From contig OMIN01000011.1 in assembly GCA_900299145.1 (NCBI GenBank), forward strand, positions 1 to 56,708: a stretch of 56,708 nucleotides of DNA, in the 5' to 3' direction. Source of the DNA: Betaproteobacteria bacterium (GTDB lineage Bacteria; Pseudomonadota; Gammaproteobacteria; Burkholderiales; SG8-41). Below, piece by piece: positions 15,141-54,344 of this stretch. Positions within the stretch are counted from its first letter, which is position 1, and each line of letters begins with the position of its first letter. The translations under genes and the position numbers were made by a program. The notes below the pieces were generated by a model. It worked only from the letters and a program-made list of their open reading frames with translations. It did not search any database and was not told the DNA's origin.

Positions 15141-15170
15141 CGTAACTATCTGATAATGAAGCAGTAATAG
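15141..15170 (+). repeat. AT-rich boundary motif, copy 1 (weak)
   Basis: Left block CGTAACTATCTGAT matches the family consensus GTAACTATCTG; the right half has diverged. It lies between the metallophosphoesterase and olsB, 74 bp before the olsB start. Confidence 0.4.
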
Positions 15171-15214
15171 AAAGTCGTTACCCTCTGTTCGTCTGGTCAA
15201 TGGAGGGGTAAAGG

Positions 15215-15982
15215 ATGCTGCAAAAGCACTTGGCGGATCGGGGGCACAAGTCGGGAATTTATCCTCGCGCGTTAACGATATCCATTGCGCGCGATCAAAA
15301 CGAAGTACGGGAAGCGCAGCGCTTGCGCTACAGGGTGTTTGCGGAAGAAATGGGGGCGCGTCTGAGTGGGCGTGCTGCGGGCATAGACTGCGATATTTTC
15401 GATCCGTGGTGCGAGCATTTGATCGTGCGCGAAACGGAAGGTGGCTGCGTGGTGGGTACCTACCGCATGCTCTGCGGCGCCAATGCACGGCGTCTGGGGG
15501 GATTCTATTCGGACGAAGAGTTCGATCTCACACGGCTTGATCATTTACGGAACCAGATTCTCGAAGTGGGCCGTACCTGCGTGCATCGCGATTACCGCTC
15601 CGGCGCGGTCATTTCCATGCTTTGGTCCGGGGTGGCGCGTTACATGCGGGAGAGTGGCTACCAGTACCTGATGGGTTGCGCGAGTGTGAGTATGGCTGAC
15701 GGCGGAGCCGCGGCAGCGAACGTGCACTATGCCCTGCAATGTTCCAGCGGCAGCCCGGCCGAATACCGCGTGTTTCCACGTTTGGATTTGCCGCTACGCC
15801 GTGCACGGCCCACTGACCCGGTGGTGATTCCGCCGCTGCTCAAAGGTTACATGCGGCTGGGTGCTTACGTGTGCGGTGCGCCGGCGTGGGATCCGGACTT
15901 CAATACTGCAGATTTGTTGCTGTTGTTGCCGATGTCGCGATTGGCGCCACGCTATGCGCAGCATTTCACCCGCACCCGCTAA
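15215..15982 (+). CDS. olsB: OlsB-like N-acyltransferase (ornithine lipid synthesis)
   Basis: A 255-residue GNAT-fold acyltransferase of the OlsB type, which attaches a 3-hydroxyacyl chain to ornithine; OlsA would then complete the phosphorus-free ornithine lipid. Visible segments are EAQRLRYRVFAEEMGA, DPWCEHLIV, VVGTYRML, LEVGRTCVHRDYRSG and the C-terminal PPLLKGYMRLGAYVCGAPAWDPDFN (in part: PPLLKGYMRLGAYVCG). ATG 15215 has GGAGG 14 bases upstream and AAGG 3 bases upstream; TTG 15224 also fits the spacing. No olsA is adjacent. Replacing phospholipid under phosphate limitation fits the cluster. Confidence 0.85.
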   Translation: MLQKHLADRGHKSGIYPRALTISIARDQNEVREAQRLRYRVFAEEMGARLSGRAAGIDCDIFDPWCEHLIVRETEGGCVVGTYRMLCGANARRLGGFYSDEEFDLTRLDHLRNQILEVGRTCVHRDYRSGAVISMLWSGVARYMRESGYQYLMGCASVSMADGGAAAANVHYALQCSSGSPAEYRVFPRLDLPLRRARPTDPVVIPPLLKGYMRLGAYVCGAPAWDPDFNTADLLLLLPMSRLAPRYAQHFTRTR

Positions 15983-16010
15983 ATTTTTAACCGGTGTCGC
16001 GAGGATAGCC

Positions 16011-16400
16011 ATGCGCATAGTGGATGCGGTGACCAGTTCGAACACGAAGAATGAAGTAGAGTTCCTGCTGACAGCTTATACAGAAACATTGCAGTTTTGC
16101 GGTGCCGCAAGATATTTGCCAGCCAACGCGGCATTATTGCCGTTAGCGGGTATCGACGATATAGAGCATCGATTGGGCAAATTGTTGAGTCACAACGCAG
16201 GCGGTTCTGAAAATCAACACTACTACGCCCGGAGCGGCATATTGCGTGAGGCCACCGAAATATTTGGCGCCGCGTGCCTACGTCTACGGTCGCTTCAAAC
16301 GAAGCCGCAGGAGGGAACCAAGGCCTCGCTGTCATTCGGCAACAGAGAACATGCCCATTTTAATGTTTCCTATGTTGATGCTTTCGCTGCGTGCAAGTAA
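16011..16400 (+). CDS. Conserved small protein of unknown function
   Basis: A 129-residue protein with no motif I recognise. ATG 16011 has GAGG six bases upstream and follows olsB by 28 bp, so it is probably in the same transcript. No signal peptide or membrane segment is visible. The sequence is mixed alpha-helical with a central LLPLAGIDDIEHRLGKLL stretch and ends AFAACK. Its position between olsB and a porin suggests a link to the envelope or phosphate-stress response, which is inference only. Confidence 0.65.
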   Translation: MRIVDAVTSSNTKNEVEFLLTAYTETLQFCGAARYLPANAALLPLAGIDDIEHRLGKLLSHNAGGSENQHYYARSGILREATEIFGAACLRLRSLQTKPQEGTKASLSFGNREHAHFNVSYVDAFAACK

Positions 16401-16497
16401 CCTTGTTAATTGCCCTATGGTTGATTCCGCTCATGACCGTCAAAGCTTGCCTGACTTCGGATTGCCGTTCGGTTTGATTTGCAGGTAAGTAGGCGCG

Positions 16498-17814
16498 ATG
16501 TCACGTTTCCCTATCCTTGTCTTGCTAATGCTCGTCAGCATGCCCGTGGTTGGAAACGCGCAATCGATAGACAGGGAGGGGTGGAACGCCAAGTTTCAAT
16601 CTACCTATATTTGGCAGGGCAAACAGCCGATTGGAGCACAGTACTCCGGTCCGAATAGCCTTTCACCGCAAAAGGAAAGAAGTTACTCGTTTACTGCCAC
16701 GGCGGCTCTGGGCTTCAGGCTTTGGCCGGGAAGTGAATTCTATGTCAATCCGGAAGGCGTGCAGGGCGTGCCCTTGTCCCGGTTAACCGGACTGGGCGGC
16801 TTTACCAATGGCGAAATTGCGCGCACTTCCGGTCCGAATTTGACTGTGTATCGCGCACGGCTCTTCATGCGTCAGTCTTGGGGCTTTGGCGGTGGTACGG
16901 AGAATATCGAATTGGACATCAATCAGCTGGCTGGCCTGGCGGACAAAAGACGTTTGGTTTTGACCGTGGGTAATCTGTCCGTTATTGACATCTTCGATGA
17001 TAATGCCTTTAGCCATGACCCACGCACGCAATTCATGAACTGGTCAATTATGACTCATGGCGCCTATGATTTTGCGGCAGACGCACGTGGCTATTCTGTC
17101 GGCGCCGCCCTGGAGTACTTTCACGATGACTGGGCCGTTCGTGCCGGCCGCTTCGCGCAACCCAAGGAACCCAATCAGCTCAAACTGGACTACGGCATAG
17201 ACAAACACTTTGGCGACCAGATTGAAGTGGAACGCGGCTACACGCTGAGCGGCCAGCCCGGAAAGATTCGCGTTTTGGTTTTTCGCAACTACGCGAAAAT
17301 GTCACGATTCAATGATGCTTTGGCGGTTGGAATAGCCACCGCAACAACACCGGATATCAACATTGTCCGGCTCTCGAATCAGGTCAAGCGCGGTATAGGT
17401 ATCAATATTGAACAGGCATTCTCCAATGATGCCGGCCTGTTTGCACGCGCCTTGTGGGCCGATGGAAAGACAGAGACATATGCGTTTACGGAAATTGATC
17501 AATCTATCTCGGGAGGCGTCGTGGTTAGAGGTACGCGGTGGGGGCGGGGCAAAGACAGTCTCGGCGTGGCTTATGCCAGCAACGGATTGTCGACTGAACA
17601 TCGCAATTACCTTGCCGCCGGGGGAATCGGCTACTTTATTGGAGATGGCAAACTGAACTACAGGCGTGAAAGCATAGTCGAAACCTATTACAGCCTGAGC
17701 ATGGGCAAGTATGCATGGCTGTCGCTGGGGTGGCAGCACATCAAACATCCGGCATACAACGCCGATCGTGGGGCGGTGACGGTGACGACATTGCGCCTGC
17801 ATACGGAATTTTGA
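16498..17814 (+). CDS. OprB-type carbohydrate-selective outer-membrane porin
   Basis: A 438-residue outer-membrane beta-barrel protein with a signal peptide (MSRFPILVLLMLVSMPVVG, cleavage after NAQ). OprB-like features are YIWQGKQPIGAQYSGPNSL, ATAALGFRLWPGSEFYVNPE (in part: LGFRLWPGSEFYVNPE), LGGFTNGE and YRARLFMRQSWGFGG, with a C-terminal strand ending in Phe (LRLHTEF). The family takes up sugars. In this block it might admit organophosphate or phosphonate substrates, which is inference. GTAAG lies nine bases before the ATG, so the ribosome site is weak. Confidence 0.82.
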   Translation: MSRFPILVLLMLVSMPVVGNAQSIDREGWNAKFQSTYIWQGKQPIGAQYSGPNSLSPQKERSYSFTATAALGFRLWPGSEFYVNPEGVQGVPLSRLTGLGGFTNGEIARTSGPNLTVYRARLFMRQSWGFGGGTENIELDINQLAGLADKRRLVLTVGNLSVIDIFDDNAFSHDPRTQFMNWSIMTHGAYDFAADARGYSVGAALEYFHDDWAVRAGRFAQPKEPNQLKLDYGIDKHFGDQIEVERGYTLSGQPGKIRVLVFRNYAKMSRFNDALAVGIATATTPDINIVRLSNQVKRGIGINIEQAFSNDAGLFARALWADGKTETYAFTEIDQSISGGVVVRGTRWGRGKDSLGVAYASNGLSTEHRNYLAAGGIGYFIGDGKLNYRRESIVETYYSLSMGKYAWLSLGWQHIKHPAYNADRGAVTVTTLRLHTEF

Positions 17815-18250
17815 GCGCAGCGTACGAGAACCGCCAATTACCATTCTGCGAGTTATTTTTCGCCTAATCATTGTCAGGCGCTGGCACAAAGCTGTGATCT
17901 AAATGCACTGATTAAGCAGCCTCGCTATAAACTGAATACCAAGAACCGTATCTGTGGTGACAATGGCGTTTTTCCAGCTAGAGCGCCAGCGATTTCAGTG
18001 CCTTTCACCGGTCATTTTTGTCTTGTCGCTTAAGTCATAAAGTACGCAAGTGTGGGGCCGAATTTTGTGTTTGTCGCTGCCGATGTCGTAGGCACTGTCG
18101 TCCTTCGCATTACGTCATGCCTTCGCCCGCTGTATGTCTTTTGGTAAACGTGGGGAAAACGTGACACATTCGGCGATTCGCTGCGTTGCTCGACGAGTGT
18201 AAGTAATTGAGGGTGGGTCATTTTCACTCGTTAAACTGCGATACTTCGAT
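17815..18250. other. Intergenic stretch without recognised gene
   Basis: No open frame here has a credible family match or ribosome site. It lies directly left of a truncated tRNA gene and could hold decayed mobile-element sequence, but I cannot identify an integrase remnant. Confidence 0.5.
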
Positions 18251-18295
18251 CTTTTAATCCGTTGGTCGCGAGTTCGAATCTCGCACCTCCTACCA
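18251..18295 (+). pseudogene. 3' fragment of a tRNA-Lys(UUU)-like gene (possible att site)
   Basis: The 45 bases begin in the anticodon loop (CTTTTAATCCG, anticodon TTT) and run through the variable region, a perfect T arm (GCGAG, loop TTCGAAT, CTCGC), the acceptor strand ACCTCCT and an encoded ACCA. No D arm, 5' acceptor strand or 5' anticodon stem is present upstream, so the gene is truncated. Such 3' fragments are typical of integrase attachment sites. Confidence 0.8.
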
Positions 18296-18316
18296 GTTTT
18301 TCTTTGATTAGCATCA

Positions 18317-18346
18317 AGGGGTTACGCGTCAGCGTAGCCCTTTTTT
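18317..18346 (+). terminator. Rho-independent terminator after the tRNA fragment
   Basis: Stem GGGTTACGC (18319-18327), loop GTCA, stem GCGTAGCCC (18332-18340) with one G-U pair, then six T. It sits where the terminator of an intact tRNA gene would be. Confidence 0.9.
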
Positions 18347-18723
18347 GTTTGCTGGCTTTGTTCTGTGTTATTGCGAAGGCCTCCAGAGGTTGCATGTCTC
18401 GCAAAGGCTGCCGTTTGGGATGAGTCCCAGGTAATCGTAGGCGACTCCCTTGTCCCAGACCCTGGAATCTCCAAGATTTCCACTCTGACGGCCACTGCAT
18501 GGCGTTAGCAGTTGCCCGCACGGGACAATCTAGCGAGAAGCCTGCAGGTTTGCCCTGCACCAAGCGGACTGCCCCGACTTTTCCCGATATGGAACTTGCC
18601 TGACATGTGCCTTGCTAATGACGCATGCCGGGCAGTTACCGAGATTAGTGCAAGACCGACAAGCGCTCCGGCGTTGACCTCAATCAATGCTTCGCTTGCG
18701 GCAGCATCTAATCTGGCTGCATC
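18347..18723. other. Intergenic stretch without recognised gene
   Basis: Short open frames occur on both strands but none has a recognisable product. One minus-strand frame runs back through the tRNA fragment and is an artefact. The promoter of the radical SAM gene presumably lies here. Confidence 0.5.
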
Positions 18724-19674
18724 ATGAGCATCGTTGATCGCATAGACGCCACCACCCGCATTCCGTTAAGCCACCGGCAGGCCGACCCGCCGGCGCCGCG
18801 CAGTGTCAAGATCGAAATATCACCGCGGTGCAATTTTCGTTGTGGTTTTTGCGCGCTGCGTACGCGTGAGGTGCAACCGAAGTGGGATATGGATTTTGGC
18901 CTCTTTAAGCGCATCACGCGCGAAATGCGCGAGGCTGGCGTCGAGGAAATCGGCGTGTTCTACCTTGGCGAATCGTTCATGAATCCGCGCCTGCTGGTCG
19001 ATTGCATCCGCTACCTCAAGCAGGACATTGCGATGCCGTATGTGTTTCTGACTTCCAACGCCTCCATGGCATTCCCGGAGGCTGTGGAGGCCTGCATGAA
19101 CGCAGGGCTGGATTCGCTGAAATGGTCAGTCAACGCCGCGGACGAAACGCAATTCGAGAAAATCATGGGGGTCGCCGGCAAGCTGTTTCACCGGGCGCTC
19201 GACAATATCCGAAGCGCCTGGAATGCGCGGCAGCAACATGGATACAAGACAGGGCTTTACGCCTCATCGATACAATATGACGGCGAACAACTCGCGAGGA
19301 TGGAAGCGCTTCTGAACGCGCATGTGCGTCCTTATGTGGATCAGCATTACTGGTTACCGCTGTACTCCATGGGCGCTTTTGCCACGCAGCGCGAGGAGCA
19401 GCTCGGCTACCGGCCCACTGCCGGCAATCAGGGAAGGCTTGATGCCCTGCGTGAACCGCTGCCCTGCTGGTCGGCGTTCACCGAAGGCCATGTCACCGCC
19501 GAAGGCAAACTGTCTGCTTGCTGCTTTGACGCCACGGCCAACTGGACCATGGGTGACCTGAACCGGCAATCATTCATGGAAGCCTGGAATTCAGCGCCAT
19601 TCGTGGCGCTGCGCCAGGCGCATTTGCGCAAGGATGTACGCGGCACGGTGTGCGAGCACTGTATTGCTTACTGA
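18724..19674 (+). CDS. Radical SAM/SPASM-domain protein of unknown substrate
   Basis: A 316-residue radical SAM enzyme. The cluster motif is CNFRCGFC (C36, C40, C43). The C-terminus has a SPASM/twitch-like cysteine set (PCWSAF, KLSACCFD, TVCEHC at 310 and 313) for an auxiliary iron-sulfur cluster. The central part fits the partial TIM barrel (GVFYLGESFMNPRLL, LKWSVNAAD). Related proteins modify peptides or act on small molecules, and the substrate is not evident. No precursor peptide is visible nearby. It is convergent with the nar operon, with no sign of functional linkage. Confidence 0.85.
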   Translation: MSIVDRIDATTRIPLSHRQADPPAPRSVKIEISPRCNFRCGFCALRTREVQPKWDMDFGLFKRITREMREAGVEEIGVFYLGESFMNPRLLVDCIRYLKQDIAMPYVFLTSNASMAFPEAVEACMNAGLDSLKWSVNAADETQFEKIMGVAGKLFHRALDNIRSAWNARQQHGYKTGLYASSIQYDGEQLARMEALLNAHVRPYVDQHYWLPLYSMGAFATQREEQLGYRPTAGNQGRLDALREPLPCWSAFTEGHVTAEGKLSACCFDATANWTMGDLNRQSFMEAWNSAPFVALRQAHLRKDVRGTVCEHCIAY

Positions 19675-19796
19675 GCGGCGCCTTGGCACGTCAATTCGGC
19701 AGTCCAGGAGCGCATTTGATAGCCGTGTTAACCCGCAGGACTACGTTGGCACCGTTGCGGACGGTAAGTAAGTTCGTGCTGAATGCCGCACGTCGA

Positions 19797-19826
19797 TATA
19801 ACCATCTGTTTTAATTGATATTTTCA
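19797..19826 (+). repeat. AT-rich boundary motif, copy 2
   Basis: Reads ATAACCATCTG followed by TTTTAATTGATATTTTCA. The tail supplies the narI stop codon on the minus strand (19824-19826). Confidence 0.6.
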
Positions 19827-21172: not shown

Positions 21173-21182
21173 ATGTGGCTCC

Positions 21183-22715
21183 TTACTTGATCTGTTTGAT
21201 GGGAATCATCTTTTTACCTTTGCCGCCAAACAGGCTGGTTTTGCTGCTGCCATCCGAGCAACCATTCCCGAACGAAAAGCCACACCCGCCCTTCAGGTCA
21301 TAGGCGTTTTCCGCATATTCGCGGTGCGTGGTCGGAATGACGAAGCGGTCTTCATAGTTGGCTATTGCCATGATGCGGTACATATCTTCGACTTCCGTCA
21401 CCGTGAGATTAGCCTGCGCCAGCAGCGCCGCGTCGTCACGCTTTTCCACGTGACGTGCGCGCATGAAGGCACGCATCGCGAGCATGCGCTCCAGCGCGTG
21501 GGCGACAGGTGCCTCGTCGCCGGCGGTGAGCAGATTGGCGAGGTACTTGAGCGGAATGCGCAGCGATTTCACATCGGGCAACGCGCCCTTCGATTCCATC
21601 AACCCGCTGCTGGCCGCGGCGCTCACTGGTGACAGCGGGGGCACATACCACACCATCGGCAGCGTGCGATACTCAGGATGCAACGGCAGTGCCACTTTCC
21701 AATCCATCGCCATCTTGTAGACCGGCGATTCACGCGCAGCCTTCAGCCATGCCTCCGGCACGCCATCTTTCCGCGCCTGTTCCTGCACCTCGACCGCGTG
21801 CGGATCCAGAAAAACACCGAGCTGGGCTTTATAGAGATCCTTATCGTTTTCCACGCTCGCAGCGTGCTCAATGCGGTCGGCATCGTAGAGCAGGACGCCG
21901 AGGTAACGAATGCGTCCCACGCAGGTTTCCGAACAAACCGTGGGCTGTCCGGCCTCGATGCGCGGGTAACAGAAGATGCACTTCTCTGCCTTGCCGCTGT
22001 TCCAGTTGTAATAAATCTTTTTGTAGGGGCAGGCGGATACGCACATGCGCCAACCGCGGCATTTGTCCTGATCAATCAGCACTACGCCGTCTTCCTCGCG
22101 CTTGTAGATCGAGCCCGATGGGCAGGCGGCAACGCACGCCGGATTCAGGCAATGTTCGCACAGGCGCGGCAGATACATCATGAAGGTGCGCTCGAATTCA
22201 CCCACCATCTGCTTTTGCGCCGCCTCGAAGTTCGCCAGATTCTCGTCCTTGCTGCGCTTTTCGAATTCGCCTCCGAGGATTTCCTCCCAGTTCGGCCCCC
22301 ACTCGATTTTCTCCATGCGCTCGCCGGTAATCAGCGAACGAGGCCGGGCGGTCGGGGCGGCCTGCGATTCCGGTGCGTGGTGCAAATGCTCGTAATCGAA
22401 GGTGAACGGTTCATAGTAATCGTCGATCTCCGGCAGGTCCGGGTTGGCGAAAAGGTTCGACAGTACTTTCAGCCTGCCGCCGATTTTTGGCACGATCTTG
22501 CCGTTGGGTTTGCGTATCCAGCCACCCTTCCACTTTTCCTGGTTCTCCCATTGCTTGGGATAACCGATTCCGGGCTTGGTCTCGACATTGTTGAACCACG
22601 CGTATTCCATTCCTGGCCGTGATGTCCAGACGTTTTTGCAGGTGACAGAGCACGTGTGACAGCCGATGCACTTATCGAGATTGAGTACCATGCCGATCTG
22701 GGCGCGGACTTTCAT
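21183..22715 (-). CDS. narH: Respiratory nitrate reductase beta subunit NarH
   Basis: NarH is the iron-sulfur subunit that carries electrons from NarI to NarG. The 510 residues hold four cysteine groups: CIGCHTCSVTC, CEHCLNPACVAACP, CRGWRMCVSACP (Trp in place of one Cys, marking the 3Fe-4S cluster) and CIFCYPR with TVCSETC. The first 57 bases are a duplicate of sequence that overlaps the narG stop; the ATG used here is the downstream copy. A 92-bp insert with a REP-like palindrome separates it from narG. Translation is probably re-coupled by the relic frame ending at this ATG. Confidence 0.96.
   Translation of the reverse strand: MKVRAQIGMVLNLDKCIGCHTCSVTCKNVWTSRPGMEYAWFNNVETKPGIGYPKQWENQEKWKGGWIRKPNGKIVPKIGGRLKVLSNLFANPDLPEIDDYYEPFTFDYEHLHHAPESQAAPTARPRSLITGERMEKIEWGPNWEEILGGEFEKRSKDENLANFEAAQKQMVGEFERTFMMYLPRLCEHCLNPACVAACPSGSIYKREEDGVVLIDQDKCRGWRMCVSACPYKKIYYNWNSGKAEKCIFCYPRIEAGQPTVCSETCVGRIRYLGVLLYDADRIEHAASVENDKDLYKAQLGVFLDPHAVEVQEQARKDGVPEAWLKAARESPVYKMAMDWKVALPLHPEYRTLPMVWYVPPLSPVSAAASSGLMESKGALPDVKSLRIPLKYLANLLTAGDEAPVAHALERMLAMRAFMRARHVEKRDDAALLAQANLTVTEVEDMYRIMAIANYEDRFVIPTTHREYAENAYDLKGGCGFSFGNGCSDGSSKTSLFGGKGKKMIPIKQIK
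22659..22715 (-). repeat. 57-bp direct repeat, copy used as the present narH 5' end
   Basis: Identical over 57 bp to 22808-22864. Both begin with the ATG of narH on the minus strand and encode the first 19 residues up to CIGC. The copies are offset by 149 bp. Confidence 0.95.
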
Positions 22716-22761
22716 AATGCATCTCCAGCATGTCTGGTTATAAGTGCATCGCTAGAACTCT

Positions 22762-22782
22762 CCCTCCCCGTGGCGGGGAGGG
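22762..22782. repeat. REP-like palindrome in the narG-narH insert
   Basis: CCCTCCCCG, TGG, CGGGGAGGG forms a perfect 9-bp stem inside the 92-bp insert (22716-22807). The GC-rich flank (GGCTGGGGTAGGGGGAG) resembles REP-type elements dispersed in betaproteobacterial genomes. Confidence 0.75.
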
Positions 22783-22807
22783 CTGGGGTAGGGGGAGCGT
22801 TAAATCC

Positions 22808-22864
22808 ACAGCCGATGCACTTATCGAGATTGAGTACCATGCCGATCTGGGCGCGGACTTTCAT
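22808..22864 (-). repeat. 57-bp direct repeat, ancestral narH start copy
   Basis: The upstream copy in the direction of transcription. Its ATG overlaps the narG stop codon. It is identical to 22659-22715. Confidence 0.95.
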
Positions 22865-26628: not shown

Positions 26629-26642
26629 GATGGCCTCAATGA

Positions 26643-26672
26643 TGTAAGTATCTGTTTTTATTGAATATTTAT
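26643..26672 (+). repeat. AT-rich boundary motif, copy 3
   Basis: Reads TGTAAGTATCTG then TTTTTATTGAATATTTAT. It fills the gap between narK2 and narG, and its tail gives the narK2 stop codon (TAA, 26671-26669, minus strand). Confidence 0.8.
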
Positions 26673-29681: not shown

Positions 29682-29877
29682 ATAGGTGACAGTCCGCCGT
29701 GACGTATGAGGCTGGCGCGCGCGCGGATCACGCAAGCAGGTTCCTGGCCGAAGCGGAGCGATGCTGCCCCGATAACATCGAGCCCAAAGACGCATGCGTT
29801 GCTTTTGACGAAGCCAGCCTTTATGTCAGCTCGTGCCAGAAAGAATGACGAGCGTGGGATGGGAGTGAGGGGGTACG

Positions 29878-29910
29878 GTAACTATCTGATTTATATATGT
29901 ATTTTAATTG
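29878..29910 (+). repeat. AT-rich boundary motif, copy 4
   Basis: Reads GGTAACTATCTGATTTAT followed by ATATGTATTTTAATTG. It lies in the narK1/tctC intergenic region. Confidence 0.6.
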
Positions 29911-34827: not shown

Positions 34828-34889
34828 GACGCGTCGCGGCCGGGGCGCGGCGCTGCTTGCAGGCTGTCTGCGCCTTAAAGTGTCATTGT

Positions 34890-34920
34890 GTAAGTATCTG
34901 TATTTATTGAAAGTTTTATA
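34890..34920 (+). repeat. AT-rich boundary motif, copy 5
   Basis: Reads GTAAGTATCTG then TATTTATTGAAAGTTTTATA. It ends at the 5' edge of the next tctC gene. Confidence 0.8.
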
Positions 34921-35916: not shown

Positions 35917-37346
35917 GTATAACCATGTCCGCCACGCAACCCATTCAACCCGTTACCGCCCAACTGTCCGCCTGGGCCGCCAGTTTCAAACTTGACGATG
36001 CACCCGCTGAAGTCGTGCAACGCATGAAAGCGCTGGTGCTGGATTTTCTGCGCGTGGTTACCGTCGGCCAGCCGCTGCCGTGGAGCCGCGCCGCGCGTAA
36101 CCTCACGCTGCAACTGGGCGGCAAGGCGGAAAGCTCGCTGGTGCTGTGCGGCAGCAAGGTCGATGCCGCGCGCGCGGCGTTTGTGAATGGGGCGTATGCG
36201 CACGCGTGCGATCTCGACGACACACATGTCGGCTCGATGCATCACGCGGGCGCATCGATACTGCCCGCCGTGCTGGCCATGGCCGAGCGCGACAACCTTG
36301 ATGGCCGCACGCTGCTCACCGCCGCCATCATCGGCTACGAGGCGTCGCTGCGCATAGGGCTTGCCACGCAACCTGCGTTGTTTCAGCGCGGCTTCATGGC
36401 CACACCCGTGTGCGGTGCGATGGGTGCTGCGTTGGCTGTTTCCAAGTGTTTGAATTTAAACGAAAAAGATATGGCGGGTGCCTTGGGCGCCGCCGGTGCT
36501 TACGCGGGCGGCCTCGCACAGTTTTACTTGTCGGGCGGCGTGACCAAGCGTTTGAATGGCGCGCGCGGCGCGGAGTCCGGCGTGATGGCGGCGTTGCTTT
36601 CGCAGGCTGGTATTTGGGGGCCGCGCGACATACTGGAAGGCGAGGCTGGTTTCTTTCACGCATTTTCCGGCGCACCAAAGCCCGAAAAAATCACCGGGGA
36701 TCTGGGGCAAGGTTTCAGGCTGATGGAGGTGAGCACCAAGATCCACGCCGGCGCGGGGCGTTTGCAGGCGACGGTCGATGCGGGGCTCGCGCTGGGCTTC
36801 GAGCACAAACTCACGCCCGCCCAAGTGGTTGAGTGCGAAGTCGGCATACCCAAGGTGGTGCAGGGGCGGCTCACGCAAAACGATCCGCCCGATTTGCAGA
36901 GCGCGCAATTGAGCATTCCGTTCAGTCTCGCCATGGCGCTGGGTCTCGGCCGCACGCGCGGTGCACAGGCCTCGCTGCGCAGCACCGACTACGATGTAGC
37001 GTTGAAGGATGCCGAGGTGCGCGCGTTATCCAATCGCACCCTTTGCGTGCTCGACCCGTGGGTGGAGGCGGGCACCAACACCGAGGAAGTGCCCACGCGC
37101 GTCACGCTCAAACTTGCCAGCGGCGCCACACACGAAATGAAAATCGAACACCCGCGCGGCAGCCCGCACCGGCGCATGGCGTGGGAGGAATTGACGGCGC
37201 TGTTTTGCGATACCGTGGGTGATGCGCTGCCGCCGGATCGTTCGCAAAAAGTGCAAACGCTGGTGGCTGGGTTGGATGGCGGCAGTAGCGTGCGCGAGCT
37301 GATGCAGAACTTTGTGGCCACACCGCAATGGTTGGCAAAATCGTAA
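35913..37346 (+). CDS. MmgE/PrpD family protein
   Basis: A 477-residue protein of the MmgE/PrpD (2-methylcitrate dehydratase-like) family. Segments include FVNGAYAHACDLDDTH (conserved DLDDTH), HHAGASILPAVLAMAE, GFMATPVCGAMGAALAVSKC and STKIHAGAGRLQATVDAGL. Members dehydrate or isomerise tricarboxylates, such as cis-aconitate decarboxylase and iminodisuccinate epimerase, so the family name does not fix the reaction. It is coupled to a tctC gene upstream and followed ten bases later by a reductase gene; uptake and dehydration of a carboxylate is a plausible unit. Confidence 0.9.
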   Translation: MSITMSATQPIQPVTAQLSAWAASFKLDDAPAEVVQRMKALVLDFLRVVTVGQPLPWSRAARNLTLQLGGKAESSLVLCGSKVDAARAAFVNGAYAHACDLDDTHVGSMHHAGASILPAVLAMAERDNLDGRTLLTAAIIGYEASLRIGLATQPALFQRGFMATPVCGAMGAALAVSKCLNLNEKDMAGALGAAGAYAGGLAQFYLSGGVTKRLNGARGAESGVMAALLSQAGIWGPRDILEGEAGFFHAFSGAPKPEKITGDLGQGFRLMEVSTKIHAGAGRLQATVDAGLALGFEHKLTPAQVVECEVGIPKVVQGRLTQNDPPDLQSAQLSIPFSLAMALGLGRTRGAQASLRSTDYDVALKDAEVRALSNRTLCVLDPWVEAGTNTEEVPTRVTLKLASGATHEMKIEHPRGSPHRRMAWEELTALFCDTVGDALPPDRSQKVQTLVAGLDGGSSVRELMQNFVATPQWLAKS

Positions 37347-38475: not shown

Positions 38476-38563
38476 CCCCGTCGCTCCCGTGCAGGCGGGA
38501 GCCCATGCAACGATTGCGATGCAGAGTGTGTTATGGGTTCCCGCCTGCGCGGGAACGACGGGG
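38476..38563. repeat. Paired inverted repeat (BIME/MITE-like) upstream of a tctC gene
   Basis: CCCCGTCG...CCCGTGCAGGCGGGA at the left is mirrored by TCCCGCCTGCGCGGGA...CGACGGGG at the right. Each arm is a hairpin, and the whole 88 bp is an imperfect inverted pair. Frames through it give the RLRGNDG peptide often seen as an artefact. Confidence 0.85.
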
Positions 38564-41551: not shown

Positions 41552-41569
41552 CGCAGGGCGCTGTTAATC

Positions 41570-41600
41570 GTAACTATCTGTTTTTATTGAATATTTAAAG
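41570..41600 (+). repeat. AT-rich boundary motif, copy 6 (closest to consensus)
   Basis: Reads CGTAACTATCTG then TTTTTATTGAATATTTAAA. It ends 7 bp before the acyl-CoA synthetase ATG, which has no clear Shine-Dalgarno sequence. Confidence 0.85.
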
Positions 41601-41607
41601 ACATCCT

Positions 41608-43722: not shown

Positions 43723-43846
43723 TGTTTCGCAAGTAGGGCTCATTCAGTTATGGAACGGGTCGCATACCTTCGCGGGAACGAAGGGGTTTGAATTCACCGG
43801 TTCTGACGGACTGCACTTGCGCTTCGAAAGTGCCGTTGTTTGATTC

Positions 43847-43872
43847 AAGTAGTTGATTTAATTGAATTTTAA
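43847..43872 (+). repeat. AT-rich boundary motif, copy 7
   Basis: Reads AAGTAGTTGATTTAATTG then AATTTTAA. Its tail supplies the stop (TAA, 43871-43869) of the minus-strand CoA-transferase gene. Confidence 0.55.
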
Positions 43873-45116: not shown

Positions 45117-45275
45117 GGAACAGCCTCCATCGGTTTGTTCAGGCATTGAATGCCGGTCGCGGAAAGTCTACCGGATCGCAACCGGTTGCGTGAAGCGTCA
45201 CGGAATCCGTTATGCTATTCGCGCGTGTGAAGCATCTGCTGTTTCAACTGCCGTCCTTTTCGAGTAGGAGTTCAG

Positions 45276-46871: not shown

Positions 46872-46898
46872 CCTGTGCAAGCTGCGACGAGCGAATTC

Positions 46899-47882
46899 TT
46901 ATTCGATTTTGATTCCCGCCGCACGCACTACGCGCGACCACTTGGCGAGTTCTGTCGCGAGGTGTTTCTGGAACAGGGCCGGACTGCCACCGGCGGGTTC
47001 AGCGCCGTCGGCGGCGAGCTTTTGCCGTACGTCAGGCAGCGCGATCACCTTGTCCAGTGCCTCATTCATTCGCGCGATGGCGGCCGCGCGCGTGCCGGCG
47101 GGGGCCAGCACACCATACCAGCTGGTGGTGGCGTAATCGCGCATGCCTGCTTCGGCCACAGTGGGCAGTTCGGGCAATGCATCGGAGCGTTTCGCACTGG
47201 TGACAGCCAGCGCGCGCAAGCGTGCGGAGCGAACATGCTGCAGCGACGAAATCATGCTGGCGAAAGTCATTTGCACCTGGCCGGCGATGGTGTCGGTGAG
47301 CGCCGGCCCCGCACCTTTGTACGGCACGTGCGCGAGCTTGACGCCGGCGGCATGCTGAAAGAGTTCGCCGGACAGATGTCCTGAACTTCCGGTACCGCCG
47401 GACGCGAAATTGAGTGCGCCCGGCTTCGCTCTCGCCAACGCCACCAGCTCCTTCACCGAAGATGCGGGAAGCGACGGGTGCACCACCAGCAAAAATGGCG
47501 CCTGCGCGAGCAGAATGACTGGCGACAAATCCTTCATCGGATCAAACGGCAAATTCGCACCGAGGCTGGGGTTAATCGCGTAACTGCTCGAAACCACCAG
47601 CAGCGTATAACCATCCGGCGCGCTTTTCGCCACCAGCCCCGCACCGACAGAACCCGCTGCCCCCGTGCGGTTGTCGACAATCATTGCGTGACCTAGGGCC
47701 TCGGTCAGCTTCGCGGTCACTGCGCGCGCGATCAAATCCGTGCCGCCGCCGGGCGCTTGGCCGACGACGAAGCGTACGGGCTTTGCCGGGTATGGTGGCG
47801 TGGACTGCGCACACAGAATAGTTACAGGTGCGGCAGCGCACAATCCAAAGACAATCTGTAAGCATTTGTTTTTATATGACAT
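46899..47882 (-). CDS. TctC/Bug-type substrate-binding protein
   Basis: A 327-residue periplasmic binding protein on the minus strand: short signal peptide (CLQIVFGLCAAAPVTILCAQ), VRFVVGQAPGGGTDLIARAV, AMIVDNRTGAAGSVGAGLVA, APDGYTLLV, PYKGAGPALTDTIAGQ and WYGVLAPAGTRAAAIARMN. ATG 47882 is chosen from the signal peptide; a longer frame to 48035 overlaps the divergent gene. The first ten codons (MSYKNKCLQI) lie inside an AT-rich boundary-motif copy read in reverse. Confidence 0.9.
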   Translation of the reverse strand: MSYKNKCLQIVFGLCAAAPVTILCAQSTPPYPAKPVRFVVGQAPGGGTDLIARAVTAKLTEALGHAMIVDNRTGAAGSVGAGLVAKSAPDGYTLLVVSSSYAINPSLGANLPFDPMKDLSPVILLAQAPFLLVVHPSLPASSVKELVALARAKPGALNFASGGTGSSGHLSGELFQHAAGVKLAHVPYKGAGPALTDTIAGQVQMTFASMISSLQHVRSARLRALAVTSAKRSDALPELPTVAEAGMRDYATTSWYGVLAPAGTRAAAIARMNEALDKVIALPDVRQKLAADGAEPAGGSPALFQKHLATELAKWSRVVRAAGIKIE

Positions 47883-47886
47883 TTTT
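47857..47886 (+). repeat. AT-rich boundary motif, copy 8, overlapping a tctC start
   Basis: Reads TGTAAGCATTTG then TTTTTATATGACATTTTT. On the other strand it encodes the first codons of the tctC gene, the only copy that clearly lies in coding sequence. Confidence 0.55.
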
Positions 47887-47982
47887 GATGAGGGATCCCG
47901 CTTCGTTTTTCGTGCCTGAGCTGCCGTGGCACGCCGCCCCGCATACCAGCTTGTAATATACCTGACGCAAAGGAGCCTACTC

Positions 47983-49101: not shown

Positions 49102-49168
49102 GCCTTGACGCTCGCTTGAGCGCTGCACCATACTGCGTCAAACCATAACGCAATTGCAGGCAGCCACC

Positions 49169-50056
49169 ATGTTCACCCGCATCGACCATGTCATGATTTG
49201 CGTGCCCGATCTCGCGGCGGGCATCGCGCAGTACGGCAAGATGGGTTTCAACATTTACGCGGGCGGCGCGCATCCTGGCCGCGGCACGCACAACGCCATC
49301 GCGATCAACGACGAAGACTATATGGAACTGCTGGCGGTGCGCGATGCGGCCGAATATGCGGCGTCGGGCAAACCGGGCACGTGGAACACCGGTCTCACCG
49401 ATTTCATCAAGGCGGGCGGCGGCATCCGTTACGTGGTTTTGCAAAGCGATGATCTCGCGGCGGATGTCGCCGCCATGCGCGGGCGCAGCGTCGATGTGAG
49501 CGATGTTACTGCGGGCAGCCGCCGCACGCCATCGGGGCAGGAACTCCAGTGGATGTCCGCCACACTCGGCCCAAAAAATCCACTGCCGATATTTTTTATC
49601 CAGCATGTCACGCCGATGGCCGAACGCCGAAAGCAGGTGCCGGTGGCGGGCAAGCATCCGAATGGCGTTTACACGCTGGAACGCACCTACATCGTGTCGG
49701 ATAATGCCAATGCTGCGTCGGCGCTCTACGCCAGAGTGCTGGGCCTGCCGCAGCCGAAAATGGTCAAGGGCACGGTCATCATGTCGGACATGTACGTGTT
49801 TCAGCTGGGCCCGCATGGCTTGGGCATCGTGCAGCCGTACGCTGCTGGCCCAGCCGCCGATGCGCTGGAGCGGCGCGGCCCTGGCCCGTTTCAGGCGCTG
49901 TATCGCACCAGGAGCATGGGTGCCGCCGCGCGCTGGATGCAGGAGCACGGATTGCCGCCGCCCGCGCGCGGTGTGCGCAATAACGGCGAGCAGGCGATGC
50001 TGATGACACCACCGGATACCTTTGGCGCGTATATTGGTTTTGTCGGGCCGGAATAA
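49169..50056 (+). CDS. VOC-family (glyoxalase-like) protein
   Basis: A 295-residue protein with two glyoxalase-like halves. The first begins FTRIDHVMICVPDLAAGIAQ with GMxxYAGG-type loop (KMGFNIYAGGAHPGRGTHNA in part: NIYAGGAHPGRGTHN) and INDEDYMELLAV; the second begins LERTYIVSDNANAASALYAR. The fold matches the PF13468-type glyoxalase-like domain. The metal ligands likely include H12 in RIDHV and E in YMELL. Neither reaction nor substrate can be given. ATG 49169 is used; no strong ribosome site is visible. Confidence 0.82.
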   Translation: MFTRIDHVMICVPDLAAGIAQYGKMGFNIYAGGAHPGRGTHNAIAINDEDYMELLAVRDAAEYAASGKPGTWNTGLTDFIKAGGGIRYVVLQSDDLAADVAAMRGRSVDVSDVTAGSRRTPSGQELQWMSATLGPKNPLPIFFIQHVTPMAERRKQVPVAGKHPNGVYTLERTYIVSDNANAASALYARVLGLPQPKMVKGTVIMSDMYVFQLGPHGLGIVQPYAAGPAADALERRGPGPFQALYRTRSMGAAARWMQEHGLPPPARGVRNNGEQAMLMTPPDTFGAYIGFVGPE

Positions 50057-50089
50057 AATTACCGGACGAAGGTCTCTGGTCGAACGTCT

Positions 50090-50118
50090 GTAACTATCTG
50101 TTTTTATTAAATTTTTTT
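50090..50118 (+). repeat. AT-rich boundary motif, copy 9
   Basis: Reads GTAACTATCTG then TTTTTATTAAATTTTTTT. It lies 48 bp upstream of the cyclic-nucleotide-binding gene. Confidence 0.8.
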
Positions 50119-50166
50119 GCCGTTGCGAAGGCGTAACGGCAGCCATTGCGTAACAGGAGCGCAACC

Positions 50167-50838
50167 GTGACAACGCAGGAAGCCGTGGGCCATGTATCGT
50201 TCGCACTGGGCGCGGTGTCGTATTGGGTGCGCGACGAAATCTGGCTGCGCTCGCTGCTGATTTTGTCGTTCGCCACCGGGTTGATTTACAACGCCATGCC
50301 GCCGGTGGGGCCGCTATGGCTGGTGCTGTTCTGGTTGACGGTGTACGTGTTCATCAACGTTTACCGCATTGTCACCAAGCTCGCCGAGGCGCGCAAGGTA
50401 CGCTTGACGGAAGAAGAAGCCGAGCTGCGCGATACGGTGTTCCCGGAATTCACGCCGGTGGAGTTTGCCAAGTTGATGCGCATCAGCACGTGGAAAGCGG
50501 TGCCCGCTGGTGTCGCGCTGACGACACAGGGTAAGATGGTGTCCGAAGTGAGCGTGATTCAGAGCGGGCATCTCAATGTGGAAATCGATGGCCGCAACGT
50601 GCACACCATGAAAGATGGCGAAATCGTCGGCGAAATGTCATTCATCGGCGGCAATCCGGCGACCGCCACCGTGCGCACTATCACGCCTACGCGCTACGTT
50701 GCATGGGAGCAGCCGGCTCTGCGCGCGTTGCTCGCACGTAACCCGGCGATGAGTTCGGCGATGCGTTCGGTGTTCAGCGTGGAACTCACGCGCAAACTGA
50801 TTGAAAGTGATCAGCAACGGGTGGCGCCGCGCGTATGA
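50167..50838 (+). CDS. Membrane protein with cyclic-nucleotide-binding domain (Popeye-like layout)
   Basis: A 223-residue protein. Hydrophobic segments occupy about residues 15-75 (LRSLLILSFATGLIYNAMPP and PLWLVLFWLTVYVFINVYRI). The C-terminal 120 residues form a cNMP-binding-like beta roll (VSVIQSGHLNVEIDGRNVH, DGEIVGEMSFIGGNPATATV). The GEMSFxGG loop replaces the canonical GExALL phosphate loop, and the usual Arg is absent (ATATVRT). No helix-turn-helix follows, so it is not a Crp-type regulator. The layout recalls Popeye proteins. GTG 50167 has GGAG eight bases upstream. Confidence 0.75.
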   Translation: MTTQEAVGHVSFALGAVSYWVRDEIWLRSLLILSFATGLIYNAMPPVGPLWLVLFWLTVYVFINVYRIVTKLAEARKVRLTEEEAELRDTVFPEFTPVEFAKLMRISTWKAVPAGVALTTQGKMVSEVSVIQSGHLNVEIDGRNVHTMKDGEIVGEMSFIGGNPATATVRTITPTRYVAWEQPALRALLARNPAMSSAMRSVFSVELTRKLIESDQQRVAPRV

Positions 50839-50949
50839 TCAACATTTCTTACGGGCTATTTTTGCCACGCGCATAGCCATTTGGAACACAAAAGCAGACC
50901 GGCAAACGGCGATAGATATTTACATCGACAACTGACAGGGAGAGACCAC

Positions 50950-52704
50950 ATGAAAGGCAACACCACAACCCTTGTATCAATTTTGAAGACTCGCACGCGC
51001 CCGTGGGTAACGTCGGCGGCGCTGGCGGCAATGTTCGGCGCTGGGATATATACTGCCGGCGCGCCACACGCGCTGGCTGCCGATGTTACCTATGAACGAC
51101 TGCTCAATCCGGAGCCGCAAAACTGGCTTTCCCATCATCGCGATTTCACCGCGCAGCGCCACTCCCCGCTCAATCAGATCAACAAATCGAACGCCAAGAA
51201 TCTGAAACTGCATTTTGCGGTGGCGATCGGCGGCACTTCGCCCAATGAGGGCTTGCAGGTGACGCCGCTGGTGGAAGACGGCTTCATGTATGTGATCGAC
51301 GGCTGGGGCGTGGTCTACAAGATCGACGTGCGCTCTGGTAATCACGGACGCATCCTGTGGAAAATGGATCCGGGCATGAAGCGTTATGGACGCATCCGCG
51401 GCGTGGCGCTATGGGGCAATCTGGTGATTTCCCCCACAGGCAAAGATGGCCGCATCATCGCCACAGACAAGGAAACCGGCAAGATCGTGTGGGACAAAAA
51501 CCTCTCTGATCATCCGGAATTGGAATTGTCCGCAGCGCCGCTGGCACTGAAAGACGACGTTATCATTGGAGGCTCCGGCGGGGATCAGGGTACGCGCAAC
51601 TGGATCGCGTCGCTTGACCCGAAAACCGGTGATCTGAAATGGAAAACTTACACCATTCCCGCGCCCGGCGAACCCGGCAGTGAAACGTGGAAAGATAAAA
51701 ACGAAGCGTGGAAAACCGGCGGCGGCGCTTTCTATGTGACTGGCTCCTACGATCCCGCGACCAATCTGACCATTTGGGGCTCTGGCAACCCGGTGCCTGG
51801 TTATGACGCCACGCGCCGTCCCGGAGATAATCTGTACACCTCGAGTGCGATTGCTTTTGACGTGGCCACCGGCAAGATGAAATGGTACTTCCAGTACACA
51901 CCCAACGATAACCGCGATTACGACGAGACCGGATCGCATGTGCTGATCGACGCAAAAGTGGATGGACAGGATCGCAAGCTCGTCACCCACGCGGGCCGCA
52001 ATGGGTTCAATTACACCTTCGACCGCGCCACCGGCCAGTTCCTTAAAGTAGGGCAGTACGTCGGCAAGGTCACGTGGACCAAAGGCATTGATCCCAAAAC
52101 TGGCAAGCCCGTTGATTACGACCCCACCAAGGACTTGCAGCTGTACGCCGAGCCGCCCACTGCTCTTCAGCACAAGGGCACGCGGCAGGTGTGCCCCGAA
52201 ATCTCCGGCGGCAACAACCTGTGGCCGGCGACCTATAGTCCGGTGACACGGCTGTTCTATATCCCCAGTCTTGAAGGTTGCTCGGACATCACCTCGGATC
52301 AAACTGCTCACGTGCCGGGCAAGTTCGCGGGTGGTAGTTACACACTGTCGGACCGGTTGACCAGCAGCATTGTGGTGGTAGATCCCGCCACCGGGCAGCA
52401 GAAGGCGCGCAAGGAACTGCCGTATCCCAACACAGCCGGTACGCTGAGCACCGCCGGCGGCTTGCTGATTACCGGCCTTACCGATGGCACGGTATTGGCG
52501 CTCGACGACCAGACCCTGGAAGAAGCGTGGCGCATCAACGTCGGCACAGGCTTTAACGCGCCGCCGATGACCTATTCCGTTAACGGCAAGCAGTACATCG
52601 CCATTGCCTCGGGCCTTGGACGCTCGGCGAGAAACAAACTGACGAAGTCGCCCGAAATGCGTACCGCCTCACAAGCGACGATGATTTTTGTATTTGGCCT
52701 GTAA
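50950..52704 (+). CDS. PQQ-dependent alcohol dehydrogenase (methanol/ethanol family), lanthanide-type signature
   Basis: A 584-residue periplasmic quinoprotein with a signal peptide (VTSAALAAMFGAGIYTAGAP, cleavage near ALAAD). Beta-propeller repeats include DGRIIATDKETGKIVWDKNL, WKTGGGAFYVTGSYDP, WGSGNPVPGYDATRRPGDNL and FDRATGQFLKVG. The catalytic Asp is D323 in NDNRDYDETG. D325 two residues later is the extra Asp of lanthanide-dependent XoxF/PedH enzymes. The metal Asn is N280; the metal Glu of the family (SGGE) is Asp (SGGDQG, D212). The vicinal Cys pair is absent. GGGAG lies seven bases before the ATG. A cytochrome c gene follows. Confidence 0.9.
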   Translation: MKGNTTTLVSILKTRTRPWVTSAALAAMFGAGIYTAGAPHALAADVTYERLLNPEPQNWLSHHRDFTAQRHSPLNQINKSNAKNLKLHFAVAIGGTSPNEGLQVTPLVEDGFMYVIDGWGVVYKIDVRSGNHGRILWKMDPGMKRYGRIRGVALWGNLVISPTGKDGRIIATDKETGKIVWDKNLSDHPELELSAAPLALKDDVIIGGSGGDQGTRNWIASLDPKTGDLKWKTYTIPAPGEPGSETWKDKNEAWKTGGGAFYVTGSYDPATNLTIWGSGNPVPGYDATRRPGDNLYTSSAIAFDVATGKMKWYFQYTPNDNRDYDETGSHVLIDAKVDGQDRKLVTHAGRNGFNYTFDRATGQFLKVGQYVGKVTWTKGIDPKTGKPVDYDPTKDLQLYAEPPTALQHKGTRQVCPEISGGNNLWPATYSPVTRLFYIPSLEGCSDITSDQTAHVPGKFAGGSYTLSDRLTSSIVVVDPATGQQKARKELPYPNTAGTLSTAGGLLITGLTDGTVLALDDQTLEEAWRINVGTGFNAPPMTYSVNGKQYIAIASGLGRSARNKLTKSPEMRTASQATMIFVFGL

Positions 52705-52709
52705 TCACG

Positions 52710-53210
52710 ATGCGAGTGATGCGAGTTTCGTTCAGACTGGCCACTGCCGCGCTGGTGATGGCCAGCGCGGTAGTCGCGGCACAGGAAGATTTTTCCTATG
52801 GCCGGCGCCTTTATCTCGACAAGGCGCAGTGTTCGTATTGCCACGGCTGGGCGGGAGATGGCGCGGGTGACGGGCAGTCCAACGGCGGCGCTGCCAACCT
52901 GCGGCAAAGCCGGCTCAATCGCGCACAGTTGGTTCTGGTCATCCAATGCGGCCGGCCGGGCACGGCCATGCCACACTTTGACGAAGGGGCCTATCGCGAC
53001 AAGCCGTGCTATGGCATGAATGAAGCCGAGGTTGGTGCACGCAAGCCACAGTTGCCGCCCGGCTCCACGCTGCAACCGCGCGAAGCCGAAGCCATTGCTG
53101 ACTATCTGCTTGGTAAATTCATCGGGCGCGGCGCCATCACGCGGGCCGAGTGTGAAGAATCGTTCGGGAAGGATGCGCGGGCGTGCGGGGAGTATGCGGC
53201 GAAGCCGTAA
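52710..53210 (+). CDS. Periplasmic cytochrome c, probable electron acceptor of the PQQ dehydrogenase
   Basis: A 166-residue monoheme cytochrome with a signal peptide (VSFRLATAALVMASAVVA, cleavage near AQED). The heme motif is CSYCH (C41, C44, H45); a likely axial Met lies in GTAMPHFDEGAY. Extra cysteines occur at QCGRPG, KPCYGM, AECEES and RACGEY, perhaps forming disulfides. It begins five bases after the dehydrogenase stop, so the two are one transcript and one electron-transfer unit. It is similar in size to XoxG/ExaB-type cytochromes, but orthology is not shown. Confidence 0.9.
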   Translation: MRVMRVSFRLATAALVMASAVVAAQEDFSYGRRLYLDKAQCSYCHGWAGDGAGDGQSNGGAANLRQSRLNRAQLVLVIQCGRPGTAMPHFDEGAYRDKPCYGMNEAEVGARKPQLPPGSTLQPREAEAIADYLLGKFIGRGAITRAECEESFGKDARACGEYAAKP

Positions 53211-53344
53211 GCGCAATCTTCATTGTGGGTAGGGAAGCGTTGCGCCGTGTTGCGAGCACGAACAACGCATGGGTGTGATCGATGACAGGGAGCTGGCCAT
53301 TTGCGTCAGTGTGTACGTATATACTCAAAGCCGAAAAAACATTC

Positions 53345-53380
53345 TTTCAAATCGCAGAAACTGGCGATTGACTGTTGAAA
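53345..53380. promoter_or_regulatory. Nested inverted repeat before an amidohydrolase gene
   Basis: Outer arms TTTCAA and TTGAAA enclose inner arms ATCGC and GCGAT. It ends just before the ribosome site AAGGAG (53384-53389). It could be an operator or an mRNA hairpin. Confidence 0.35.
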
Positions 53381-53395
53381 CCCAAGGAGCAATAA

Positions 53396-54235
53396 ATGAT
53401 CACCGACGCACAAGTTCATCTGTGGAATCCCAACACGCCCGACGACCCGTGGGAGCCGGGCGCAGCGGCACATTTGCCCGAACCCATGCCCGCCGAGCGC
53501 ATGATGAAGCTGATGGATGAAGCTGGCATTGACCGCGCGATCGTGTCGCCAGCGAATGTTGCGCCCAAGCGCAGCCCGGTGTGCGGGCAGGCGGCCGCGG
53601 CCAAATACCCGAAGCGTTTTCGCGTGATGGCGTGGTTTGTGCCGACGGTGCCGGAGCAATACCAACTGCTGCCACGCTGGCTGGATCAGCCCGGCGTGTG
53701 CAGCCTGCGGCTTTCGATGAACGAGCCGGAACATCAGAAGATGTTTGCCGACGGTGTCTTCGATCAGGTGTGGAAGGCATGCCTCGATCAGGACATGCCG
53801 GTGGCGATCTGGACGCGTGCCGGTCCCGCGCTGATGGAACCGGTGCTGCAGAAATACCCGAACCTTGCTTACATCATTGACCACTTCGGCTGGGTCGCGC
53901 CCGACGATAAACGCGAGGCCAAGATCAAGGCCATGGAGTCTCTGGCGCGCTTCAAGAACGTCACGGTCAAAGTGTCGTCGCTGCCACTGATTTCGAGCGG
54001 CAACCCACCCGAATACGACGACCTGCATCCGATTATCAAGCGCGTGCACGCGGCGTTTGGCGCCGACCGCTTGATGTGGGGTTCGGACCAGACGCAGATC
54101 ATGGGCAAGAACCGCGGCAGCTACGCGCAGAACGCTGACATCGTGCGCAAATACGCGGCGGCCTATCTGCCCGCCGGCGATGTGCAGAAAATGATGCACG
54201 ACACGGCGACGCGCGTGTTCAAGTGGCCGGTGTAG
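53396..54235 (+). CDS. Amidohydrolase family 2 protein (TIM-barrel metal hydrolase)
   Basis: A 279-residue amidohydrolase with ITDAQVHLWNPNTPDDPWEP at the N-terminus (HxW in place of HxH, as in lactonase-like members), PVAIWTRAGPA, NLAYIIDHFGW (metal His), VTVKVSSLPL and LMWGSDQTQ (catalytic Asp). It resembles the 4-sulfomuconolactone/2-pyrone-4,6-dicarboxylate lactonase branch. AAGGAG lies seven bases before the ATG. The reaction is probably hydrolysis of a lactone from aromatic breakdown, but the substrate is not shown. Confidence 0.87.
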   Translation: MITDAQVHLWNPNTPDDPWEPGAAAHLPEPMPAERMMKLMDEAGIDRAIVSPANVAPKRSPVCGQAAAAKYPKRFRVMAWFVPTVPEQYQLLPRWLDQPGVCSLRLSMNEPEHQKMFADGVFDQVWKACLDQDMPVAIWTRAGPALMEPVLQKYPNLAYIIDHFGWVAPDDKREAKIKAMESLARFKNVTVKVSSLPLISSGNPPEYDDLHPIIKRVHAAFGADRLMWGSDQTQIMGKNRGSYAQNADIVRKYAAAYLPAGDVQKMMHDTATRVFKWPV

Positions 54236-54315
54236 GCGGTTAAATTGCCATGCGTGGCCGCGCAGCGCCCGGCCGGATTCGGTGGACGGTCATTTCACTA
54301 GCAGGTCCAATGAAT

Positions 54316-54344
54316 CATAACTATTTGATTTGTTGATATTTTTT
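54316..54344 (+). repeat. AT-rich boundary motif, copy 10
   Basis: Reads CATAACTATTTG then ATTTGTTGATATTTTTT. It lies between the convergent amidohydrolase and double CoA-transferase genes. Confidence 0.55.

Follow-up and report, generated by a model that had tools for sequence, protein, structure and literature searches.

What is the short AT-rich motif that recurs along the 56,708-nt stretch of DNA from an uncultured betaproteobacterium analysed here (the window), and why should the host chromosome carry it? A sequence-only reading of the window had listed ten copies at gene boundaries, all in the plus direction and none in the first 15 kb, and had put forward three candidates: a replichore-oriented chromosome signal, a short dispersed repeat and a site for a nucleoid protein. 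The repeated motif is real and far beyond chance, and the last of these candidates fits best, with the form of the motif pointing to IHF (integration host factor), a DNA-bending protein. It is likely that the copies are IHF binding sites and, with rather less assurance, probable that they would together make up an array structuring a chromosome that lacks HU, ordinarily the DNA-packing protein.

Copies in the window and the host genome

Nine of the ten listed copies stand, with scores of 31.8 to 49.3 bits under a genome-wide position weight matrix (PWM) whose training sites include those same copies. Three are strong: one separating narG from a narK-like gene that scores under its NCBIfam cut-off, the two genes being encoded on the minus strand (26642..26671, plus strand, 49.0 bits), one in a gap flanked by two plus-strand genes (41568..41597, plus, 48.1 bits) and one in a gap flanked by two called plus-strand genes (50088..50117, plus, 49.3 bits). 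The other six, all likewise on the plus strand, occupy a gap flanked by two plus-strand genes (34888..34917, 36.2 bits), a convergent gap (19796..19825, 41.1 bits), a divergent gap between called genes (47856..47885, 37.1 bits), a gap in which the end of the copy abuts a short called gene (29876..29905, 32.6 bits), and two further convergent gaps in which the motif has the canonical TTGATT form (43843..43872, 31.8 bits; 54315..54344, 35.3 bits). The tenth, listed at 15141, is doubtful, its plus-strand match (15140..15169) reaching 9.5 bits and consisting of the left block only. Four copies were absent from the original list, namely 1135..1164 (plus, 35.1 bits), 2074..2103 (plus, weaker at 17.6 bits, of the YAANNNNTTGATT form), 6163..6192 (minus, 27.5 bits, barely within a called gene start) and a weak intragenic copy at 36440..36469 (plus, 13.1 bits). 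The first three of these contradict the supposed emptiness of the first 15 kb, the interval without sites at a 12-bit threshold running from approximately 6.2 to 19.8 kb, while the minus-strand copy breaks the supposed uniformity of direction, the near-all-plus appearance being local to the window.

The host genome (G000) comprises 5,508,723 bases in 158 contigs, with approximately 60% GC. The PWM was built by iteration on a sample of nine stretches (848,727 bp), consisting of the window plus long host contigs, about 0.79 Mb in all, taken from a list of consensus matches. A scan of this sample reveals a large excess: 259 sites of at least 16 bits in the 848,727 bp, against none in one dinucleotide shuffle. 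A search of the whole 5.5-Mb genome for the consensus GTAASTATCTGTTTTTATTGAAT, allowing at most three mismatches, finds 226 forward and 228 reverse matches, against 0 for a reversed-pattern control, and a looser pattern, YAANNNNYTGWTTWWWW, is found 1,273 times (623 and 650 on the two strands) against 11 for its reversed control. When the loose pattern is applied to the sample it predicts 1,240 copies per genome, close to the 1,273 counted, and the sample is therefore not notably site-rich; the PWM count thus extrapolates to approximately 1,700 copies per 5.5 Mb (1,681 plain; 1,726 calibrated).

Form of the motif

Site frequencies describe the motif as TAA-S-T-A-T-Y-TG-W-TTT-W-ATT-R-A-N-T-W-TTTT, with a weak preference for A/T up to about six bases before it. 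In the host PWM this resolves into a core, YAA-N4-YTG-WTT, and an A/T tract beyond; the conserved span is approximately 37 bp (about -6 to +31), with the T-rich tract some 9 bp past the core. The IHF consensus is WATCARNNNNTTR, with an A-tract upstream and a site of 35 bp, as described in PMC9820253 and PMC8421141. Save for one position, the host motif is WATCARNNNNTTR read in reverse complement, and its A-tract lies on the side where an IHF site would have it: both half-sites are present with the exact 4-bp spacer, and the conserved span and the side of the T-rich tract correspond to the upstream A-tract and the span of about 35 bp. At the departing position, the complement of the T of WATCAR, T is found in 200/274 host sites and the canonical A in 73/274. 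When W is permitted at this position, YAAN4YTGWTW occurs 290 times in 849 kb against 49 in the shuffle; spacers of 2, 3, 5 and 6 between the half-sites show no enrichment in the same 849 kb (33-48 against 41-53 shuffled). A comparison among genera, in which the spacer and position 13 were excluded from scoring, finds the half-sites still informative in g7, g8 and G014, with a spacer preference that is weaker or altered there, and in G014 the changed position is canonical in 12 of 18 sites (67%).

These same features must be weighed against the possibility that a different DNA-binding protein, either a global regulator or another nucleoid protein, recognises a motif similar to that of IHF. Such a protein would account for the conservation of the host spacer, STAT, which exceeds that of the N4 in the IHF consensus, and for the one consensus position that differs in most copies; yet the exact 4-bp spacer, the position of the A/T tract and the span all agree with IHF, the spacer is relaxed in other genera and the motif of G014 is mostly canonical, and we consider this explanation unlikely.

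Placement, spacing and conservation

The placement at gene boundaries first noticed in the window holds for most copies, 186 of the 259 sites in the host sample lying between genes: 114 in co-directional gaps, 36 in convergent gaps and 36 in divergent gaps. One site lies at a contig edge and 72 fall within called genes, of which 37 lie at most 150 bp from a called start, four are near a stop and 31 are deep; genes were taken from a simple purpose-made caller and their starts are approximate. Some avoidance of genes is to be expected anyway of an AT-rich word in a genome of 60% GC. Within co-directional gaps, 68 sites have the same orientation as the genes and 46 the opposite (69 and 61 in a wider count). 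Promoters and terminators can be set aside, as the first reading had argued, given that sites occur in every type of gap, in both orientations in co-directional gaps, and with no enrichment of hairpins.

The sites are more evenly distributed than the available gaps would dictate. Mean spacing in the host sample is 3.25 kb, and only 4/250 intervals are shorter than 500 bp where about 36 would be expected at random. The coefficient of variation (CV) of spacing is 0.65, against 0.82 +- 0.05 for randomly drawn gap positions (0/500 simulations reaching a value this low), and intervals shorter than 1.5 kb number 36, against 75 in random gap draws (minimum 59). The same tendency extends to the 31 deep intragenic sites, whose median distance to the closest non-deep site is 2,373 bp (1,098 bp at random; 0/1000 simulations as far), with two of them within 1 kb of a non-deep site where 14.7 were expected; the genes that contain them are long (median 1,722 bp against a length-weighted expectation of 1,107 bp). 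Spacing is also even in G018, of genus g6 (CV 0.81 against 1.04, 0/500; deep sites 18/1000), and falls short of significance in G025 (124/500; deep sites 151/1000). G001 is irregular at a low threshold (CV 1.03 against 0.85, with 478/500 simulations at or below); with a strict PWM its CV is lower, 0.76 and 0.45 on two stretches, values that have no null for comparison.

Conservation of position between orthologous gaps, a check proposed in the sequence-only reading, was assessed by mapping motif-bearing loci of relatives onto the host via both flanks. Nineteen places could be mapped and 17 have a site; we count 13, excluding six on host loci that had been fetched for having the motif. The orthologous place retains a site (at least 8 bits) in 11 of these 13, with identical orientation in all 11, one of them being weak (15.5 bits) and in a wide interval. 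The core is 88% identical against 67% for the 30-bp flanks across 15 pairs, comprising 10 of the 11 unbiased places and five of the six excluded ones.

Gene content, rival readings and known systems

If the motif is an IHF site, the host should be expected to encode IHF, and it does. A search with Pfam PF00216 returned only two proteins in the host, IHF-alpha and IHF-beta, both over NCBIfam cut-offs. Neither PF00216 nor an HU query from a relative detected HU, and PF00816, the sole model used for H-NS, detected none; IHF is thus the only recognised HU/IHF-family protein of this genome. The best models for the HU query are HU-beta and HU-alpha, but it does not reach the cut-offs of these two models, which are of E. 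coli type; nonetheless it splits the family genomes sharply, with E <=6e-24 where HU is present and approximately 1e-11 to 1e-13 where IHF alone answers. H-NS (PF00816) was found in 4/45 family genomes searched. The alignment showed no change in IHF unique to motif-rich genomes.

The motif is concentrated in the host's family. A strict pattern matches 33 of 120 genomes, the host among them, and none of the 48 from other families, and of the 80 loci listed when a public genome collection was scanned for exact copies, 77 belong to assemblies named as Betaproteobacteria, Burkholderiales or Bordetella and the other three to two Sphingobacterium and a rumen bacterium. The loose pattern and its reversed control were also counted in 199 genomes (74 from the family, 125 outside). 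Besides the host, 13 other g1 genomes have 121-1,088 copies, G018 has 895, 21 g7 genomes have 238-441, three g8 genomes have 99-206 and G014 has 79 against 4 for the control. An excess of more than 10 sites per Mb, a cut-off chosen after seeing the data, is passed by 41/74 family genomes, and 37/74 exceed the highest of the 125 outside genomes (36.9 per Mb). Outside the family 30/125 genomes also pass 10 per Mb, all of them HU-bearing and many with high reversed-control counts, so that G014 (13), G009 (17.5), G050 (20) and G026 (31) are weak evidence of expansion. Adding an eight-fold ratio to the control leaves one outside genome of the 125 (G193) and removes G009 and G057 inside. An unrooted tree of 14 genomes groups g1 with G018 with full support, and G014 with the HU-bearing G022 likewise, its deeper order being without support.

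Expansion of the motif and presence of HU do not coincide in any family genome: HU was detected in 0/41 expanded genomes, and hence in 0/37 of the top ones, and 0/22 HU-bearing family genomes pass the cut-off. Fisher's test gives p = 5e-11 on the assumption of independent genomes, which related genomes are not, and these are accordingly not 74 independent tests. Two genomes, G010 and G121, have no HU/IHF match of any kind, and their lack of HU may therefore be assembly loss. The absence of HU is insufficient by itself for expansion, since 11 of 52 HU-negative family genomes are unexpanded (including 4/4 of g9, 4/4 of the HU-negative g4, G039, G049 and G064), and outside the family, too, six HU-negative genomes show no expansion, with at most 4.8 per Mb.

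The usual view is that nucleoid proteins pack bacterial DNA largely without regard to its sequence, and that IHF sites act at single promoters or in single recombination events. From the form and distribution of the motif and from gene content we infer a different arrangement here. The asymmetric core, WATCARNNNNTTR in reverse complement, would be recognised together with the A/T tract by the IHF heterodimer, which would bend approximately 35 bp of DNA sharply, at IHF-type sites about every 3 kb along the chromosome. Selection would maintain their fairly even spacing, chiefly in the gaps between genes, because there an AT-rich word costs least, and within long genes at places remote from any gap site. 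The bends might then act as regular architectural points, in compaction or in supercoil domains, in place of HU, which suggests that one packing protein may have taken over the role of another. That the array compensates for the absence of HU we regard as close to an even question, leaning slightly to the negative; the fullest version of the proposal, in which a lineage without detectable HU and H-NS would have replaced nonspecific packing with an IHF bend lattice of approximately 1,700 sites, selected at intervals of 2-4 kb even within genes, is more tentative again. IHF sites are of course already known, and the new part would be a large, evenly spaced array in genera without detectable HU; we found no description in the open-licence literature of a genome-wide IHF-site array, nor of HU loss in this group. 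Were the proposal true, the fold of the nucleoid would be written in the genome sequence, a positional code for the folding of a bacterial chromosome would become directly testable, and these genera would represent a natural experiment on nucleoid proteins replacing one another.

The chief rival, because uptake would also favour dispersed sites, is a DNA uptake sequence, in which case transformation would favour DNA carrying the motif, and biased uptake with recombination would spread it evenly. The motif is over-represented on both strands, as such a sequence would be, and several of its traits resemble the Pasteurellaceae USS: a core with A/T tracts spaced by roughly one helical turn, copies in the hundreds to thousands in either orientation, and dialects that differ between genera. 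The host also encodes ComEC, and G009, the weak-motif member of its genus, does not; G009 has in addition two H-NS matches and a third PF00216 protein, a gene content compatible with either IHF sites or DNA uptake. However, ComEC is near-universal regardless of the motif (43/45 family genomes searched), flanking hairpins are not enriched at host sites, and the uptake reading leaves the IHF consensus form unexplained. None of 271 host sites (at least 12 bits) lies within 100 bp of another, although the closest pair under a slightly looser PWM (278 sites) is 64 bp apart; the USS of H. influenzae are often paired, 23% being within 100 bp of another (PMC7811141). Only 31/259 host sites are deep within genes, whereas ORFs contain 65% of the USS in H. 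influenzae (PMC2346458), a contrast tempered by the avoidance of genes to be expected of an AT-rich word. We judge uptake to be quite unlikely because of the IHF form, the lack of close pairs and the lack of a link to ComEC; if it were correct, this would be a new uptake sequence outside the Neisseriaceae and Pasteurellaceae.

The dispersed repeat suggested by the sequence-only reading, whether of REP/BIME, Correia or MITE-like type, would agree with a high copy number, a mainly intergenic position and concentration in one family, but is very improbable. Similarity ends beyond approximately 37 bp and the copies vary in the manner of a binding motif; they repel one another, and their place is conserved across species. 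The motif is not palindromic, and flanking hairpins are not enriched at the 259 sites, where stems of at least 7 occur upstream in 15/259 and downstream in 14/259 against 32/344 random gaps. A replichore-oriented, KOPS-like signal, to which the all-plus copies first listed in the window had pointed, retains hardly any probability because the strands are used equally, the test that the first reading had itself named: consensus matches number 226 and 228, PWM sites over the nine stretches 143 plus and 116 minus, neighbouring sites share orientation in 135/250 pairs, and the plus:minus ratio is unrelated to GC skew, our stand-in for the origin-terminus axis since the assembly is fragmented (70:55 on positive-skew stretches, 73:61 on negative).

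Putative IHF sites thus remain the preferred reading, and the motif invites comparison with several known systems. KOPS/AIMS-type motifs are short, non-palindromic and abundant, as the host motif is, but the latter has no strand bias. Pasteurellaceae USS and Neisseriaceae DUS are similarly abundant, occur in both orientations and have dialects between genera, and USS also have a core with A/T tracts; the host motif is unlike them in its few close pairs, mainly intergenic position, IHF-site core and no apparent link to ComEC. Correia elements are dispersed and can bind IHF (PMC2649163), as is proposed for the host copies. BIME/RIB elements, also dispersed, likewise carry IHF sites. Both kinds of element have inverted repeats or palindromes, whereas the host repeats the site alone. 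The IHF sites of E. coli share with the host motif the half-sites, the 4-bp spacer, the A/T tract and the span. They number about 300 (PMC8421141), against approximately 1,700 by extrapolation in the host, where spacing is even, HU is not detected, and the consensus is tighter, with one position mostly changed.

Species labels and site-free stretches

Among the matches listed from an exact-match scan of a public genome collection for the motif (an AT-rich, IHF-like repeat, YAA-N4-YTG-WTT with an A/T tract, read as a putative IHF site), loci L046-L049, L052, L058-L060 and others belong to metagenome assemblies publicly labelled Bordetella parapertussis. Because these assemblies bear the motif of the host's lineage, the label is probably wrong. 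Long stretches without motif sites, and with lower GC, were seen at 6.2-19.8 kb of the window (GC 0.57) and at 13.8-30.2 kb of host contig C124 (GC 0.54); these are possibly acquired islands.

HU/IHF proteins within the family

Three relatives from genus g9 (G021, G032 and G037) each encode four proteins of the HU/IHF family (PF00216), none of them HU-close, and motif counts per genome showed no motif expansion; this is another unusual HU/IHF arrangement within the host's family. G009, from the host's own genus, is a natural contrast to the host, combining lower GC (0.48 over 100 kb sampled), a weak motif expansion, two H-NS matches and a third PF00216 protein, while a genome search did not find ComEC.

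Repeats and an open frame in the window

A 91-nt block is common to five places between 30242 and 41301, with 62-76% identity to its reference copy; the genes there appear to encode putative periplasmic substrate-binding (Bug-type) proteins, two of which had no match in an NCBIfam model search. The stretch from the narG stop to where the following gene begins contains a perfect 57-bp direct duplication (22659-22715 and 22808-22864, offset by 149 bp start to start), and the end of each copy could supply a minus-strand start codon. The single open frame at 54362-56611 has two tandem matches to CaiB-type CoA-transferase models, both below cut-offs, and this tandem arrangement suggests a predicted two-domain fused enzyme. 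Finally, an inverted repeat at 38476-38563, with 31-nt arms that are 90% complementary and separated by a 26-nt gap, looks from its sequence like a REP- or MITE-type hairpin.
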